NCBI GenBank assembly: GCA_018262715.1
Contig: JADFDS010000043.1
Coordinates: 62,001-126,000 of the forward strand
Length of the DNA stretch: 64,000 bases
Direction: 5' to 3'
Source of the DNA: Bacteroidota bacterium
Lineage (GTDB): Bacteria > Bacteroidota > Bacteroidia > Bacteroidales > VadinHA17
Below, in pieces: positions 28,419-38,390 of this stretch. A program made the position numbers and the translations under genes. Position 1 is the stretch's first letter. Each line of letters begins with the position of its first letter. Below the pieces are notes generated by a model. It saw only the letters and a program-made list of their open reading frames with translations. It was not told where the DNA came from and made no database searches.

Positions 28419-28553
28419 ATCTTTTTTTTGCAAAACACGTGCCATTATTTGCCCTGCTAAACCTCTCGGCAAGCCCGACCTTCAGATTGATGAGCCATTC
28501 GGCGAACCGTACAGAGCCAGACCCTTGTGACAAAGAGCCGGGGCTTTCCGACC

Positions 28554-30824: not shown

Positions 30825-33188
30825 GTGAAGAGATTCTCAATACAGGTCAAGATCGGCTTGCTGATGGTTCTGGCGGTTGCATTGCTGGCCGCCACTGGCT
30901 ACCTGGCCTACAAGAACCTCTCTTCTATTGTCAGCTCAATTAACGTTGATGTTGATCCGGGCAGAAAGCTCCTGACCATACGCGAGATATCCATGGATCT
31001 CCAGAAGGCGGAAAACAGTTTCAGGATGTACTCTGTCACCAATGATGAAAAAGACCTTCAGCCCTATTATTCAGTTATTTCCGGGATTGATGAAAAAGTC
31101 AGCAGGCTCCGGGAGGAATGCAGTGACTCCCCGCTCCTCATTACTCAGACAGACACCATTACAAAACTCATCGAAGAAAATATCTATATCTGGAATGAGC
31201 TTCTTTTCCTGAACCAGGACCACCGCGTGATTGAATACCTCATTCAACTGCCTGACAGACTGAATATCAGGACGGAGGGAGAACAGGAGGCTGAAAGGGG
31301 GATTCTAAGACGAGTCTTCAGCCGCTCCGAAAAGAACCGCATCGATGAGCAGGCTCTCCTCACTGACCTTGACAGGATTGAAAAGGAGGATCAGGCTGTC
31401 AGGGAGAAATTGAAACAGCAGGAACTCCAGTTGGCGGGCACCAGCACCAGGATCAGGGAGCAGTTTTATGACCTCACCGCCAAGATGGAATATGAGGTAT
31501 CGGAAATACTCAGTGCCAAGGCATACGAGGCAGACCTTCTTTCCGGAAGGACCTACCGCTGGCTTGCCATGTTCCTGATCTCGGGCATACTCCTGGCCAC
31601 CCTGGTGGTCTTTACAGTCACCAGGTATGCCAACAGGTCCGAAGCCTTTCGTGTCGCCCTGCAACGTTCCAGGGACGAAGCCGAAAACCTGGCAAGAACC
31701 AAGGAACAGTTCATGGCCAACATGAGTCATGAGATACGCACTCCGGTGACCTCCATAACAGGGTTTACCGAACAACTGCTTCATGAACCGCTGGATGATA
31801 ACTCCCTTGGAAAACTGAAGATAATCAGATCGTCATCCCTCCACCTTGAAAAGATAATCAATGACATACTGGATTTCTCAAAACTGCAGGAAGGGAAGAT
31901 GGTGCTGGAGGAGATTCCCTTCAGCATCGGAAGGATAACAGAGGAGGTGCATGCCATGTTCCTTGACCAGGCCAGGAAAAACAACACTGTCCTGTCGTTT
32001 TTCATTGATCAGGATACCCCCCCGGTTTTAATTGGTGATCCCTACCGGCTGAAGCAGGTTATGATCAACCTGGTCAGCAACTCTGTAAAGTTTACGGCTG
32101 GCGGCACGGTCAGGATTTCAGTTGCCGGTATTGCGAAACAACCCGGAGAAATATTGGCAGTGATGGAGTTTGCCGATACCGGGATTGGGATAGATGAGGA
32201 TAAGATCAGCATCATCTTTGAGGATTTTGCCCAGGAAGAGATGAGTACCGCGCGGAGATACGGCGGGACAGGACTTGGCCTCTCAATCGTCAGGAAGCTC
32301 GTTGACCTGATGAACGGAAAAATTGAGTTCCACAGCAGGAAGAATGAAGGAACAACGGTGAGGTGCGAGATTCCGCTCAGGGTTGGCGAACCGGAGCAAT
32401 TGACCGGGGAGACTGAGCCGGTTGCAGATGTACCCTCTGAGCTTGGCAAGCTCAGGGTGCTTATTGTTGATGACGAGGAGTACAACCGGATGCTTTTCAA
32501 AACCATTTTCAGGCGATGGGGTGTTGAATGCTCCGAAGCTCCGGATGGGAGGGCGGCCCTCGGGGTACTCGGAAGGGAAAGGTTTGACCTGGCTCTGATG
32601 GATATGCGCATGCCGGGCCTCGACGGGGCGGAAACTACAGGGTATATACGCAATGAGCTGAAGATAAGTGAATCAGAAATGCCTGTGATCTGCGTGAGTG
32701 CCGGTTTTTCCGAAGAGGATATAAGTCGTTACCGCAAATCGGGAATAAACGGTTTTCTCCGGAAACCATTCTCGGAGAAAAGCCTGGCAGAGACTATTAT
32801 GAGTGTTGCCGGCCATGGCGGCGATGAGGCAAATTCCATTACGCCGGGGATTGATCTCGGTGACCTCCGCCATATTGCCGGCGGAGATGAAAAGTTTGTA
32901 AGGGAAATGCTCGCTGCGTTCCTTGCAGATGCTGACAAAGGCATCGCTGAGATGGCCGGACTTTTACAAACAGGTGAGACCGGAAGGATAGCGGAAATAT
33001 CTCATAAACTTATCCCTAAATTCCGCCATACCGGCGCCGAAAATATGGCTTCCCTTCTGACCCGTATTGAGCAAGCTGCGAGGGATGGAGGCGATGTAAG
33101 GCAGCTTGAAATCCTTGTCAGATCACTTGTCAAAGGATTCCCGCAGGTGCGGAAAGAGATCACGGATTACCTTTATGAAAATGGCTGA
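30825..33188 (+). CDS. Hybrid sensor histidine kinase with receiver and HPt domains
   Basis: 787 residues from a GTG. Two membrane spans (about 10-28 and 246-266) flank a helical extracytoplasmic sensor of about 215 residues. HisKA has phospho-His about 302 in NMSHEIRTP, then HATPase (LVSNSVKFT, DTGIGIDED, YGGTGLGLSIV), a receiver with phospho-Asp in LALMDMRMPGLDG, and a C-terminal HPt domain with ISHKLIPKFRHTG. The signal passes His-Asp-His and probably on to the NtrC-type regulator, whose start codon overlaps this stop by 8 bases. Ligand unknown; there is no recognisable sensor family. Confidence 0.9.
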   Translation: MKRFSIQVKIGLLMVLAVALLAATGYLAYKNLSSIVSSINVDVDPGRKLLTIREISMDLQKAENSFRMYSVTNDEKDLQPYYSVISGIDEKVSRLREECSDSPLLITQTDTITKLIEENIYIWNELLFLNQDHRVIEYLIQLPDRLNIRTEGEQEAERGILRRVFSRSEKNRIDEQALLTDLDRIEKEDQAVREKLKQQELQLAGTSTRIREQFYDLTAKMEYEVSEILSAKAYEADLLSGRTYRWLAMFLISGILLATLVVFTVTRYANRSEAFRVALQRSRDEAENLARTKEQFMANMSHEIRTPVTSITGFTEQLLHEPLDDNSLGKLKIIRSSSLHLEKIINDILDFSKLQEGKMVLEEIPFSIGRITEEVHAMFLDQARKNNTVLSFFIDQDTPPVLIGDPYRLKQVMINLVSNSVKFTAGGTVRISVAGIAKQPGEILAVMEFADTGIGIDEDKISIIFEDFAQEEMSTARRYGGTGLGLSIVRKLVDLMNGKIEFHSRKNEGTTVRCEIPLRVGEPEQLTGETEPVADVPSELGKLRVLIVDDEEYNRMLFKTIFRRWGVECSEAPDGRAALGVLGRERFDLALMDMRMPGLDGAETTGYIRNELKISESEMPVICVSAGFSEEDISRYRKSGINGFLRKPFSEKSLAETIMSVAGHGGDEANSITPGIDLGDLRHIAGGDEKFVREMLAAFLADADKGIAEMAGLLQTGETGRIAEISHKLIPKFRHTGAENMASLLTRIEQAARDGGDVRQLEILVRSLVKGFPQVRKEITDYLYENG

Positions 33189-34533
33189 AACACATCTGAA
33201 GATCTTCGTTGTTGAAGACGACGAATGGTACAACAGGCTCCTGGTTCACACCCTCAGCCTGAATGCAGATTATGAGATCAGAAGCTTTAATACGGCTGCC
33301 GGTTTCCTGGAGGCCCTGCATGAAGCGCCTGACATTGTAACCCTCGATTACAGGCTGCCTGACATGAACGGCCTCGATCTCCTGAAGAAAATAAGGGAGG
33401 AGAACAGTGAGGTGCAGGTTATCCTCATTTCCGAACAGAAGGATATCGAGACGGTGGTCAGCCTGCTTAAGCTCGGGGTCTTTGACTATCTGGTAAAGAC
33501 AAATGATATCCGTGACCGGCTTCTCTTTACTGTTCAGAACATCAGGAACGGCATCGGTCTGAAGCGGGAGATAACCTCTCTTCGCCAGGAAGTGCAGAAC
33601 AAGTATATGTTCCGCAACACCATCATGGGTGAGAGTCCGGCCGTCAGGGCTGTTTTTACCCTTATGGAGAAGGCCCTTGACACCAACATCACAGTCATAC
33701 TTACGGGCGAGACCGGAACCGGGAAGGAGCTGGCAGCAAAGGCGATTCATTACAACTCAAAGCGGAAGGACAAACCATTCGTGCCAGTCAACGTAGCAGC
33801 TATACCTTCGGAACTTATTGAAAGTGAACTTTTCGGTCATGAGAAAGGAGCTTTCACAGGCGCCACATTCAGACGTACAGGCAGGTTTGAAGAGGCTGAC
33901 GGAGGCACCCTTTTCCTGGATGAAATAGGGGAGATGAATCCCGCACTGCAGGCAAAGCTGCTAAGAGCCCTACAGGAGAAGGAGTTCGTGCGGATAGGAA
34001 GCAACAAGGCCATTAAAACCGATTGCCGGATAATTGTGGCAACCAACAGAAACCTCCTGGAGGAAGTAAAAAAGGGAAACTTCCGTGAAGATCTCTATTA
34101 CAGGCTGCGCGGCCTCCCGATAGAACTCCCCCCACTGAGGGAGAGAGGCAATGACATGCTTATCCTGGCCAGTCATTTTACAGAGAGATTCTGTGCCGAA
34201 AACGGTATCCCCCTCAGGAAATTTACACAGAGTGCACAGCAAAAACTGCTCGGATACCCTTTCCCCGGAAACATCAGGGAGCTTAAATCAGTTGTTGAAC
34301 TTGCGGTCACCCTCTCAGAAAACCAAACCATCGAAACTGAAGATATAATCCTTGACCCGGGAAATCCGCTCTCCGAGATCATGAATGAGGAGCTGACGCT
34401 GCGACAGTATGAGATTAAGATCATAAAGGCCATGCTCAGGAAACATAATAACGATATCAAAGTGGTGGCCGGCAAACTCGATATCGGGATCTCCACAATC
34501 TACAGGCTCCTGAAAGAAGAGAAGCAATCATGA
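33181..34533 (+). CDS. NtrC-family sigma-54-dependent response regulator
   Basis: About 450 residues. The receiver (FVVEDDEWYN, phospho-Asp about 56 in VTLDYRLPDMNG) is followed by the AAA+ domain: Walker A GETGTGKE, the sigma-54 contact loop GAFTGA, Walker B GGTLFLDEIGEM and the Arg finger region FREDLYYRLRGLPIELPPLRER. A Fis-type HTH closes the protein (VVAGKLDIGISTIYRLLKEE). It activates RNA polymerase carrying sigma-54 from upstream sites. A sigma-54 promoter lies 120 bases downstream, with candidate binding sites between, so the likely target is the next gene. ATGs at 33175 and 33181 are both possible. Confidence 0.93.
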   Translation: MAETHLKIFVVEDDEWYNRLLVHTLSLNADYEIRSFNTAAGFLEALHEAPDIVTLDYRLPDMNGLDLLKKIREENSEVQVILISEQKDIETVVSLLKLGVFDYLVKTNDIRDRLLFTVQNIRNGIGLKREITSLRQEVQNKYMFRNTIMGESPAVRAVFTLMEKALDTNITVILTGETGTGKELAAKAIHYNSKRKDKPFVPVNVAAIPSELIESELFGHEKGAFTGATFRRTGRFEEADGGTLFLDEIGEMNPALQAKLLRALQEKEFVRIGSNKAIKTDCRIIVATNRNLLEEVKKGNFREDLYYRLRGLPIELPPLRERGNDMLILASHFTERFCAENGIPLRKFTQSAQQKLLGYPFPGNIRELKSVVELAVTLSENQTIETEDIILDPGNPLSEIMNEELTLRQYEIKIIKAMLRKHNNDIKVVAGKLDIGISTIYRLLKEEKQS

Positions 34534-34535
34534 CA

Positions 34536-34564
34536 TCTCAAAATCCTGTTTTCTCATTTTGAGA
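34536..34564 (+). terminator. Inverted repeat after the NtrC-type regulator gene
   Basis: Perfect 9-bp arms TCTCAAAAT/ATTTTGAGA with an 11-base spacer, 3 bases after the stop. It could terminate the kinase-regulator transcript. It also overlaps the first candidate activator site, so the two readings compete. Confidence 0.4.
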
Positions 34565-34585
34565 AAATAGTTCTCATATTGAACA
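34551..34585. promoter_or_regulatory. Tandem upstream activator sites for the NtrC-type regulator (candidate)
   Basis: 34551-34565 is a perfect palindrome TTCTCA-TTT-TGAGAA. 34571-34585 is a near copy, TTCTCA-TAT-TGAACA, exactly 20 bp later, so both lie on the same DNA face. They lie about 70-100 bp upstream of the sigma-54 -24/-12 element, the usual place for such sites. Confidence 0.5.
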
Positions 34586-34651: not shown

Positions 34652-34668
34652 CGGCACACCCTTTGCAT
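34652..34668 (+). promoter_or_regulatory. Sigma-54 (-24/-12) promoter
   Basis: CGGCACACCCTTTGCAT matches TGGCACG-N4-TTGCA except at two positions. GG (34653-34654) and GC (34665-34666) are separated by 10 bases as required. The transcription start would be near 34678, after the ATG at 34674, so the downstream gene must start at 34704. Confidence 0.7.
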
Positions 34669-34703: not shown

Positions 34704-35690
34704 ATGAAAAATGAAGAAACAACTAACCGTAATAACGCCAGCGATGACCCTTCAGGCATCAGTTATGCGGAAAACGCGCGCAGGGACGGCATTGCCAGAG
34801 GAGTCAGAACAACCGCAATCATCAGCCTGTTAATTCTCGTTGCGGCAGGCGTCGTTGCATGGCTAGGGTTCAGCAGGCACCAGGAAAAACAGCTGGCACT
34901 TATGGAAAACGAGAGGGGTACCTTCAATGAGATGCTGTCAGTTCGTGACTCAACCCTGAACGACTGGCTTCAGACGTTCACCCAGATTGAAAATGACCTC
35001 AATGCTCTCAAACAAAAAGAGAACCTTATCACAATCCGCAACTCTGATAATGTCGAATTCACTTTGACCAGGAGAGAGCAGATTCTTGGTGACATTAAGA
35101 GTATCAGCCTGCGGCTCGATGAAAACAGGAAGAAACTTGCATCCCTGAATTCCCAGCTGAAGAATTCGGGCAGGGAGATCAAAGGCCTCCGCGAAATGAT
35201 AGCAGGCCTTGAAGCCAGGATTGAGGGACATGAGAAGGAGATAGCAGCTCTTGAACAGTCTGTCACTGAAAAAGATTTAAAGATAGGTGAACTTAATACT
35301 CTCACTGCTGACCTGCAGAACACCGTTACTGCGAGGGAAGAGGTTATCACCACCCAGCAGGCAGAGATGAACAGGGCTTACATTGCCTCAGGAAGCTACA
35401 AGGACCTGAGAGATTTGGGGATTGTCTCAAAGGACGGGGGATTCCTCGGAATCGGCAGAACAGAATCACTGGTCAATGATATAGCTGACAGCCTGTTTGC
35501 CCAGATTGATATCACCCAGCTGAAATATATACCTGTGAATTCCAGGGATGCAAAACTTGTGACTGAACATCCCACAGATTCGTATCAGTTTGTCCGTGAG
35601 GATGACGGCCTTGTTGCCAGCATCGAGATCAAGGATCCTGAACGGTTCTGGAAGATATCGAGGTATGCTGTTGTAGAACTAAAAAAATAA
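34704..35690 (+). CDS. Membrane-anchored coiled-coil protein, probable sigma-54 target
   Basis: About 328 residues from MKNEETTNRN. A cytosolic N-terminal stretch of about 35 residues precedes one membrane span (TTAIISLLILVAAGVVAWLGF). A long periplasmic coiled coil follows (about 60-230, heptads through LASLNSQLKNSGREIKGLREMI), then a C-terminal globular part with YIASGSYKDLRDLGIV, GGFLGIGRTESLVNDI and IEIKDPERFWKISRYAVVELK. The C-terminal block looks conserved in Bacteroidota but I know no function for it. The start is set by the sigma-54 promoter; the upstream ATG at 34674 would precede the transcription start. It is probably the main output of the adjacent two-component system. Confidence 0.75.
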   Translation: MKNEETTNRNNASDDPSGISYAENARRDGIARGVRTTAIISLLILVAAGVVAWLGFSRHQEKQLALMENERGTFNEMLSVRDSTLNDWLQTFTQIENDLNALKQKENLITIRNSDNVEFTLTRREQILGDIKSISLRLDENRKKLASLNSQLKNSGREIKGLREMIAGLEARIEGHEKEIAALEQSVTEKDLKIGELNTLTADLQNTVTAREEVITTQQAEMNRAYIASGSYKDLRDLGIVSKDGGFLGIGRTESLVNDIADSLFAQIDITQLKYIPVNSRDAKLVTEHPTDSYQFVREDDGLVASIEIKDPERFWKISRYAVVELKK

Positions 35691-35711
35691 AGCCGGGATG
35701 ACGGTGATTCC

Positions 35712-35741
35712 TTTGGAATTTCCTTCATTACACTAATATAT
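35712..35741 (+). promoter_or_regulatory. Promoter of the candidate structured RNA
   Basis: TTTG (35712-35715), an 18-base spacer, and TAATATAT (35734-35741). The predicted start falls at the 5-prime arm of the closing helix at 35744. The -7 match is only partial. Confidence 0.4.
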
Positions 35742-35743
35742 AC

Positions 35744-35860
35744 CCCGGAACTACAGGGTTGACAATCAACGGCAGAAGTTGGGACTGAGACTATCAACTG
35801 CCGGCGAAAGCAGGAGGGAGAGTTCCGGGACCTAAAAAGACGCTGAAAGGCGTCTTATTA
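35744..35860 (+). ncRNA. Candidate structured RNA of about 115 nt, unassigned
   Basis: No credible coding frame is present. A 9-bp perfect closing helix (35744-35752 with 35821-35829) encloses a small hairpin (GTTGA-CAA-TCAAC, about 35759-35770) and a longer bulged stem (GGCA/GTTG with CAAC/TGCC, about 35771-35803). It is followed by a classic terminator at 35837-35856. The gene has a possible promoter of its own and ends before the next promoter at 35861, so it looks like an independent small RNA. It matches no riboswitch or sRNA consensus that I recall. Alternative pairings between the two ATCAAC segments could allow switching. Confidence 0.45.
35837..35860 (+). terminator. Terminator of the candidate RNA
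   Basis: Perfect 7-bp stem AAGACGC/GCGTCTT (35837-35843, 35850-35856) with a 6-base loop, then ATTATTTG. It lies directly before the -33 element of the acylase promoter. Confidence 0.65.
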
Positions 35861-35892
35861 TTTGCTTTCAGCTGAAAAATATCCTAATTTTA
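35861..35892 (+). promoter_or_regulatory. Promoter of the penicillin-acylase-family gene
   Basis: TTTG (35861-35864), a 20-base spacer, and TAATTTTA (35885-35892). It supports the ATG at 35913, with a leader of roughly 14 bases, and rules out the TTG at 35862. Confidence 0.7.
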
Positions 35893-35912
35893 GTGAAATA
35901 TTGCATCGCGGG

Positions 35913-38390
35913 ATGATCTTTGCTGTACGAATATTCCTGGCAGGAGTGGCGTTCATGGCATCTTCCCTCCCGGGTCTGTCTGAAGTGCCCGGGATCACTG
36001 ATGAAATATCAACCCGGCAATATGAAGGGACTCTGTCTCTCACAGGGCTTAATGACACCGTGATTGTATACCGTGATGAGCGGGGCATGCCGCATATTTA
36101 TGCAAAGAATGAGCATGACCTCTACATGGCAACGGGCTACATAACTGCACAGGAGAGGCTGTGGCAGATGGACCTTGTTCGCAGGAGCGCATCCGGACGC
36201 CTTGCGGAGATCTTCGGGAAGTCATTTGTACAGGCTGATATATTCTCCAGGTGCCTGCGTATCCGGGAAAAGGCGAGACAAATCATTGATAATGAAGATC
36301 CCCGTATCCTCAGTTCCCTGACAGCATATACTGACGGTGTGAATGCTTTTATCGCCTCGTGCGGAAAGCACCTGCCACTCGAGTTCAGACTTCTCTCATA
36401 CACTCCGGAGCCATGGACTCTGGAAAACATTGCCAGCATTATCGGGTTGCTGGGCTGGAATCTCGACTGCCGCAATCTTACCGCTGAACTCTATGTATAT
36501 CAGCTGGTAAGCAGGATCGGTGCCGAAAAGGCCGCTGCGCTGATACCTGACTGGCAGGCGACGGATGCTGTGGTATATCCTGATTTTGCCCTGAGTGACA
36601 GCGTCATTCTGCGTACCAGGGAGATGATATCTTCCCTGGCCGGCATTGCAGAACTCGGTGTTTCCGGATTGTCTTCCAGCAATAACTGGGCTGTATCCGG
36701 AAACAGAAGCGAGACCGGTATGCCGCTGATGTCAAATGACATGCACCTGAATCTGCCGTCGCCCGGCATATGGATGCAGATGCACCAGGTCATCCCCGGT
36801 GAACTGAATGTAACAGGAGTCCTGATCCCCGGCGCACCTTTCATCATAGCCGGGCATAACAGCTCCATAGCATGGGGAATGACCAACTTCAGGGTCGATG
36901 CCATCGACCTCTATGCCGAAAAGCTCAATCCTGACAATCCCGGCCTGTATCTTTTAAACGGTGATTGGAGGGAGATGACTAAAATGAAAGAAGTTGTGAA
37001 TATCAGGGGAGGAAAGGCAGATACGGTTACCATCTGTTTCACCCACAGAGGGCCGGTGATATCCGGTTGCATCGACACAGACGACATCTCTCCGAACCTT
37101 CAATGGATCGGGTATGATTACCTGATGGGACTTCATGGCCATGAGAATCCGGCAATCAGCATGAAGTGGTCCGGATATGACGACAGCGATGAGGTGAAAG
37201 CCGTCTGGCTGATTAACCGAGCCAGGGGATGGGACGACTTCAGGGTCGGGATCAGCCTGTTCAGGGCCATTAGCCAGAATTGCGTATATGCTGACACAAT
37301 GGGCAATATCGGGATGAGCAGCGGCGGCGGAATTCCCCTCAGAAACGGCAGCGCAATACTGATCAGAAACGGCGAAACCGATGAATATGACTGGAAAGGG
37401 TATGTTCCGTTCGATCAGATGCCCTGGGAATTCAATCCCGCTTCAGGTTATGTCTCCTCGGCAAACAACAGGATTGTGGACGATGACTATCCATGGTTCA
37501 TCAGCAACAGCTTCGAGCTGCCATACCGCATCAACCGCATCAGGACAATGATAGGGGAGAAGGAAAAGTTTGGGATTGACGACTTCTGCATGATGATCAC
37601 TGACCAGCACTCTGACCTGGCACGGCTGATGACCCCTTTGATCCTGAGGATCCGGGAAGATCATGTCCCGGTCTCACCGCTGGAGGCAGCAATGCTTGAC
37701 ACCCTCGCCGCCTGGGATTATGATATGAACCCTTCGCTTGTCTCACCAACCATTCTCGAATACTTTCGGACCAGCTTCAGGCGAAACCTCCTGGCCGATG
37801 AGCTTGGTGAGCTGTATGAGTCGATGTGGGATATCTCAGCCGAATACTACATCTACAGGTTGCTTGCGGAAGGATATGACGGGATGGTGGATGACATCAC
37901 CACGGAACGCCCCGAGACGCAGGATGATATTGTACGCCGGAGCTTTACCGAGGCGATCGCTTCCCTTGAGAAGGATTATGGCCGCCATCCGGAACACTGG
38001 AACTGGGGGAGGATACACTCTGTCACCTTTACCCATCCGCTGGGTTCCGTAAAGATACTGGGTTCGCTCCTGCATCTGAATTCCAGGAAATACCCGGTCG
38101 GGGGAAGTGATCACACTGTCTGCCCTTTCTTTACCTATAAACCAGGATTTGCTGCAGTAAACGGGGCATCAGTCAGACATATCTTCAACACAGCCGACTG
38201 GGATGCGTCACTTTCAGTGATCCCGGGAGGTATCTCGGGTGTGCCCGGAAGTGAGTTTTACCTTTCCCAGGCGGATGATTACATAGACGGGAAATTCTAT
38301 CCTGATCATTTCAGCCGCGAGGCGGTGCTCTCCTCGGTAAAATACACCCTGATGCTCATGCCTCCGCCCCAGCTTGACATCACTCACTGA
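35913..38390 (+). CDS. Penicillin-acylase-family Ntn hydrolase
   Basis: About 825 residues with a signal peptide (FAVRIFLAGVAFMASSLPGLS). The precursor is expected to cleave itself before Ser 256 in LSS-SNNWAVSG, making the N-terminal nucleophile of the beta chain. GYITAQERLWQMDLVRRSASGRLAEIFG is the typical alpha-chain opening, and IIAGHNSSIAWGMTNFRVDAIDLY and LQWIGYD are further beta-chain blocks. Family members hydrolyse amides (beta-lactam side chains, acyl-homoserine lactones, peptides) in the periplasm. The true substrate is unknown. The small gene downstream has its own promoter inside this 3-prime end. Confidence 0.9.
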   Translation: MIFAVRIFLAGVAFMASSLPGLSEVPGITDEISTRQYEGTLSLTGLNDTVIVYRDERGMPHIYAKNEHDLYMATGYITAQERLWQMDLVRRSASGRLAEIFGKSFVQADIFSRCLRIREKARQIIDNEDPRILSSLTAYTDGVNAFIASCGKHLPLEFRLLSYTPEPWTLENIASIIGLLGWNLDCRNLTAELYVYQLVSRIGAEKAAALIPDWQATDAVVYPDFALSDSVILRTREMISSLAGIAELGVSGLSSSNNWAVSGNRSETGMPLMSNDMHLNLPSPGIWMQMHQVIPGELNVTGVLIPGAPFIIAGHNSSIAWGMTNFRVDAIDLYAEKLNPDNPGLYLLNGDWREMTKMKEVVNIRGGKADTVTICFTHRGPVISGCIDTDDISPNLQWIGYDYLMGLHGHENPAISMKWSGYDDSDEVKAVWLINRARGWDDFRVGISLFRAISQNCVYADTMGNIGMSSGGGIPLRNGSAILIRNGETDEYDWKGYVPFDQMPWEFNPASGYVSSANNRIVDDDYPWFISNSFELPYRINRIRTMIGEKEKFGIDDFCMMITDQHSDLARLMTPLILRIREDHVPVSPLEAAMLDTLAAWDYDMNPSLVSPTILEYFRTSFRRNLLADELGELYESMWDISAEYYIYRLLAEGYDGMVDDITTERPETQDDIVRRSFTEAIASLEKDYGRHPEHWNWGRIHSVTFTHPLGSVKILGSLLHLNSRKYPVGGSDHTVCPFFTYKPGFAAVNGASVRHIFNTADWDASLSVIPGGISGVPGSEFYLSQADDYIDGKFYPDHFSREAVLSSVKYTLMLMPPPQLDITH

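Follow-up and report, generated by a model that had tools for sequence, protein, structure and literature searches.

A conserved structured RNA behind a Cbp1-family gene in one genus of Bacteroidales, more plausibly an mRNA tail or a small regulatory RNA than a new riboswitch

Introduction

What is encoded by the 117-nt stretch at positions 35744–35860, which lies between a gene for a membrane-anchored coiled-coil protein and an acylase gene in an uncultured Bacteroidales genome? An earlier note on this DNA had proposed a structured RNA with its own promoter and terminator and with riboswitch-like switching. The locus was followed through related genomes, and the results favour a structured mRNA tail or a small regulatory RNA over a new riboswitch. 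Throughout, the window refers to the whole 64-kb stretch of DNA that was analysed, and all positions are counted within it. The features of the element and the gene before it are as follows.

34704–35690, + strand: gene of a Cbp1-family membrane-anchored coiled-coil protein (328 aa from the ATG at 34704)
35697–35730, + strand: hairpin H0 in the 3′ UTR (forms in six species and covaries)
35737–35743, + strand: AU-rich linker TATATAC between H0 and P1 (part of TATACCCCGGA, common to six species)
35744–35829, + strand: structured RNA body, closing helix P1 around a variable rod (conservation and pattern scan)
35837–35863, + strand: intrinsic terminator, a hairpin with a U-rich tail (consensus scan and pairing in six species)

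Results

Fold and extent of the element

The 117-nt stretch has a folding energy of −43.2 kcal/mol, compared with −27.7 on average for its dinucleotide shuffles (z −4.87), and none of 200 shuffles folds as well. The closing helix and the terminator are the source of most of this surplus; the interior of P1 alone, taken from the window sequence, is ordinary relative to its shuffles (z −1.27). All three plus-strand frames across the stretch contain stops and a long ORF is absent, in agreement with the earlier statement that there is no coding frame. The extent of about 115 nt first proposed covers the downstream part of the element, whereas the conserved structure reaches about 50 nt further upstream and spans approximately 35697–35863, beginning right behind the coding region. 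Six species share one order of parts, with H0 behind the stop codon, then the AU-rich linker TATATAC, and finally the rod closed by P1 and the intrinsic terminator. A structured RNA with its own terminator is therefore kept in all six, as had been proposed for the window sequence.

Closing helix, terminator and interior

P1 consists of 9 bp in which CCCGGAACT (35744–35752) pairs with AGTTCCGGG (35821–35829). A 9-bp inverted repeat with a loop of 50–90 nt occurs at 8 start positions in the 64-kb window; such repeats are thus not rare and P1 alone would prove nothing. Its conservation in six species lifts it above chance. The eight pairs tested hold in all six species (100% paired); one of them shows a compensatory change (A-U to U-A) and the other seven are invariant, so that the support for P1 lies mainly in the retention of both arms while the interior between them diverges.

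The terminator hairpin AAGACGCT-GAAA-GGCGTCTT (35837–35856; written whole, AAGACGCTGAAAGGCGTCTT) is followed by a T-rich tail. Across the six species 98% of its cells are paired and two pairs are changed on both sides. P1 and the terminator together comprise 16 modelled pairs, with 99% of cells formed and 7 cells changed on both sides; none of 500 shuffles reaches the same covariation, and slid versions score far lower. Conservation of helices in relatives, the absence of which the earlier note would have taken as a refutation, holds for the 9-bp closing helix and the terminator hairpin, both of which are present at the positions described and kept in six species.

The two internal stems fared differently. 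The interior sequences diverge strongly among the six species, and the inner stems of the window sequence are out of register even in G001, an 84% identical relative, with no pair-for-pair conservation between the two. All six interiors can be drawn as a rod, a shape that covariation does not demonstrate. The two ATCAAC segments (at 35765 and 35793), for which alternative pairing had been suggested, correspond to ATCAAA and ATAAAC in G001, and the duplication is absent there.

These interiors bear on a reading in which P1 and the terminator simply end the transcript or block 3′ exonucleases, the interior being a drifting spacer and no separate RNA being made. The strong sequence differences fit this reading, as does the folding of the interiors, which in all of the six species but G002 is barely better than that of shuffles. 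Nonetheless it appears improbable, because P1 and its 5′ flank hardly vary across the six species, a constancy that a generic stabilising stem does not need, and because the interior length is held at 63–71 nt.

Hairpin H0 and the AU-rich linker

Only a few bases separate the start of H0 from the stop codon of the Cbp1-family gene, so that the hairpin lies outside the coordinates first given for the element. It forms in 6 of 6 species with z values of −1.4 to −2.4. In its core three pairs are changed on both sides (U-A to G-C once and C-G to A-U twice), and its loops differ in length between species. H0 carries no real U-tract; it could be a weak terminator of the Cbp1-family gene. The linker that follows is part of an 11-bp block, TATACCCCGGA, that is invariant in the six species while its flanks vary, and TATATAC is a possible processing site or unconventional promoter.

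Distribution

A DNA search of 100 related genomes returned a single full-length homologue, which lies in the congeneric G001 (84% identity). Tracing the upstream gene through the genus located the element directly behind it in G002, G003 and G018. With the five sequences then available as the basis of a covariance model, a sixth member was found in G020 (51 bits). The RNA is thus seen in the window genome and five other species of the same genus. A pattern scan of the inverted repeat across 84,980 species recovered same-genus relatives and otherwise chance-looking matches; those in Eubacteriaceae, Sphingomonas, Robiginitalea and other taxa have neither the terminator nor the flank, apparently lie in coding DNA and were rejected. 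When a second model was run against 393 genomes of the order, all that it returned apart from the window itself were short matches resembling a terminator. Among the weak covariance hits in the family and order that were inspected, several were tRNA genes followed by a terminator of similar sequence, and the others had little in common with the element beyond its terminator. As far as seen, the element is restricted to one genus, and the covariance search did not find it in most genomes of that genus and its family.

The RNA occurs once per genome and at the same position in relatives, which rules out a repeat or mobile element; the next-best match in its own genome extends over 37 bases only (E 0.008). 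No such element lies behind the 29 distant Cbp1-family homologues examined in the order, and viral contigs contain no match to it. Rfam 15 at the gathering threshold has no match in the window, and at E 10 only chance-level matches fall in the region. The earlier note assigned this RNA to no family and proposed a covariance search of Rfam; these results agree with it.

A rod with a closing stem also resembles 6S RNA, which has a closing stem, an internal loop and a terminal hairpin, and neither 6S RNA nor Bacteroidales-1 RNA matches elsewhere in the genome. Identity with a divergent 6S RNA is nevertheless highly improbable. The body measures only about 85 nt against 179–187 model positions, most members of the genus and family lack the element, and no covariance-model similarity appears at the locus even at E 10. 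Membership in either family was rejected, with no model match at the locus or genome-wide. In this genome as a whole (G000, 98% complete), neither 6S RNA (RF00013) nor Bacteroidales-1 RNA (RF01693) was detected.

Gene neighbourhood

The upstream partner is constant. The RNA follows the Cbp1-family gene in five species and its remnant in G020, where the gene is cut to approximately its last 28 codons and fused to another frame while the RNA is retained. The sigma-54 promoter of the Cbp1-family gene is also gone from G020. The fused frame (G020, L108, 3765–4277) encodes 170 aa, of which the C-terminal ~28 residues are the Cbp1-family tail; it is apparently a gene fusion produced by deletion.

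The gene downstream of the RNA varies: an acylase in the window genome and G001, a DUF6504-like gene in G002, G003 and G018, and TspO in G020. The DUF6504-TspO segment was also inspected in five further members of the genus (G006, G010, G013, G017 and G021), and in none of them does it adjoin the Cbp1-family gene or the RNA. The acylase of the window (35862–38390) is of the penicillin-amidase type (PF01804) and stands directly behind the RNA only in the window genome and G001. In G002 the acylase is found further downstream, beside a TspO-like gene, and has therefore moved within the locus.

Promoters around the RNA

The promoter that lies just past the terminator is the following.

35861–35891, + strand: housekeeping-type promoter of the acylase gene, TTTG-N20-TAATTTT

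This promoter, TTTG-N20-TAATTTTA starting at 35861, fits the Bacteroidales housekeeping consensus described previously (PMC7366714). The promoter of the DUF6504 gene reads TATCTTTG. Upstream of the RNA, no match to the Bacteroidales consensus TAnnTTTG/TTTG was found, whereas neighbouring genes have clear ones, and a search for a sigma-54 site immediately in front of the RNA found none. Of the two promoters described in the earlier note, the downstream one thus stands, as that of the acylase, and the upstream one departs from the consensus; the first reading was probably wrong in giving the RNA a promoter of its own, for which the housekeeping consensus offers no support.

The position upstream of the acylase and the competing stems of the window sequence had suggested a riboswitch or attenuator of the acylase gene. 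Such a role is very unlikely, since the acylase follows the RNA in two of the species only and is served by a housekeeping promoter of its own past the terminator. In addition, orthologous acylases elsewhere lack the element, and G001 does not keep the ATCAAC segments. A riboswitch in general was likewise rejected: the genes behind the element are neither the same nor related, being an acylase, DUF6504 or TspO in different species, and a conserved ligand core with alternative pairing is missing from an interior that diverges even in G001. The unconserved pairing segments and the variable downstream gene with its own promoter contradict the switching proposed earlier, and the link to the acylase gives way to one with the constant upstream gene.

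The main rival to the preferred reading is a freestanding sRNA gene of about 115 nt, transcribed from an unconventional promoter around TATATAC, with H0 as the terminator of the upstream gene. The invariance of TATACCCCGGA despite varying flanks, the terminator immediately behind the body and the persistence of the RNA in G020, where most of the upstream gene has been lost, all speak for such a gene. It is nonetheless rather doubtful, given the missing TAnnTTTG/TTTG motif that neighbouring genes possess and the weak U-tail of H0; furthermore, a start 6–8 nt past TATATA would cut into the 5′ arm of P1, the best-conserved part.

The upstream module

The Cbp1-family gene is preceded by a regulatory module with the following features.

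30825–33188, + strand: hybrid histidine kinase with CHASE3, HisKA, HATPase and receiver domains (Pfam; order kept in G001, G002, G003 and G018)
33106–34533, + strand: NtrC-family response regulator with a sigma-54 interaction domain (PF00158, E 2e-71)
34555–34573 (ends approximate), + strand: palindrome TTTTCTCATTTTGAGAAAA, candidate enhancer site for the regulator
34652–34667, + strand: sigma-54 type promoter CGGCAC-N5-TTGCA of the Cbp1-family gene

The interval given for the regulator is a mechanical ORF, and its true start is probably further in. The order of kinase, regulator and Cbp1-family gene is kept in G001, G002, G003 and G018, where the regulator orthologues upstream of the Cbp1-family gene are 79–93% identical and the Cbp1-family orthologues, directly upstream of the RNA in these four species, are 73–91% identical. 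The Cbp1-family assignment is based on NCBIfam NF052320 (190 bits versus a cut-off of 90). The promoter has one mismatch to TGGCACN5TTGCW, and both its GGCAC-N5-TTGC core and the palindromic core upstream of it are conserved in five species. The segment 34555–34667, between the NtrC-type regulator and the Cbp1-family gene, is likely part of a self-contained sigma-54 circuit in an uncultured Bacteroidales. Elsewhere in the window, TGGCACGTGTTTTGCA on the minus strand (28429–28444) is a perfect match to the sigma-54 consensus and the sole exact one.

Discussion

A structured 3′ UTR and its possible product

The reading preferred here, to which about an even chance is assigned, is that the element is the structured 3′ UTR of the Cbp1-family gene (34704–35690), cleaved to an RNA of approximately 115 nt that serves in mRNA end protection or as an sRNA. 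The element tracks this gene, H0 lies near its stop codon, the downstream gene differs between species and no housekeeping promoter precedes the RNA. Further support comes from the covariation of H0, the retained pairing of P1 and the terminator, the conservation of the sigma-54 promoter and palindrome, and the presence of an RNase E/G gene. As expected of an sRNA derived from a 3′ UTR, the RNA is directly 3′ of one coding gene and conserved with it; a terminator that the mRNA could share is present, and H0 could end the mRNA earlier. Several observations count against a 3′ UTR. TATACCCCGGA is more conserved than a plain linker needs and would suit a promoter, G020 has the RNA without the gene and its sigma-54 promoter, P1 shows one compensatory pair only, and H0 is possibly a weak terminator.

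In the mechanism proposed for the 3′ UTR, the kinase and the sigma-54 regulator would switch on the conserved sigma-54 promoter, and the transcript would run through the Cbp1-family gene and stop at the terminator (35837–35863). An endonuclease, for example the RNase E/G encoded in the genome, may then cut within the AU-rich linker. Cleavage would leave a stable RNA of about 115 nt with its ends capped by P1 and the terminator, and the released RNA may either protect the mRNA end or act as an sRNA co-induced with the envelope protein.

It is put forward tentatively, as possible, that the element represents a new genus-restricted RNA family, an sRNA from the 3′ UTR of an envelope gene under two-component and sigma-54 control, and that it constitutes an independent CpxP/CpxQ-like dual output in a phylum without an obvious Hfq. 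Should the RNA be released and act in trans, it would show that a stress regulator producing one transcript with both a protein and an RNA arm has evolved in Bacteroidales too, an order where, to our knowledge, only a small number of sRNAs and no chaperone of the Hfq type are understood. Were its role confined to stabilising or terminating the mRNA, the element would be an ordinary 3′ UTR, simply uncatalogued so far.

Comparison with known systems

The element belongs to a known kind and is a new case of it, with a narrow distribution. In Enterobacterales, the CpxQ sRNA comes from the 3′ UTR of cpxP (PMC4817254; reviewed in PMC9438474). As in that system, an envelope-linked gene stands behind a two-component system, its conserved structured 3′ UTR ends in an intrinsic terminator, and RNase E/G is encoded here. 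The present locus differs in having a sigma-54-dependent regulator instead of CpxR. Hfq was not found in this genome, and a CpxQ-like role would therefore need another helper or none. The comparison is an analogy of arrangement in which no sequence relation is claimed and cleavage is only proposed for the RNA described here.

Bacteroides thetaiotaomicron, of the same order, has 21 UTR-derived sRNA candidates and no obvious Hfq, a lack that the same study gives for Bacteroides in general (PMC7366714). Whereas those candidates come from transcriptome data, the RNA described here is predicted from conservation alone. Bacteroidales-1 RNA (RF01693) and 6S RNA (RF00013) share with it the character of a compact RNA with a closing stem in Bacteroidales, but neither model matches the locus or the genome, and the present RNA is half their length.
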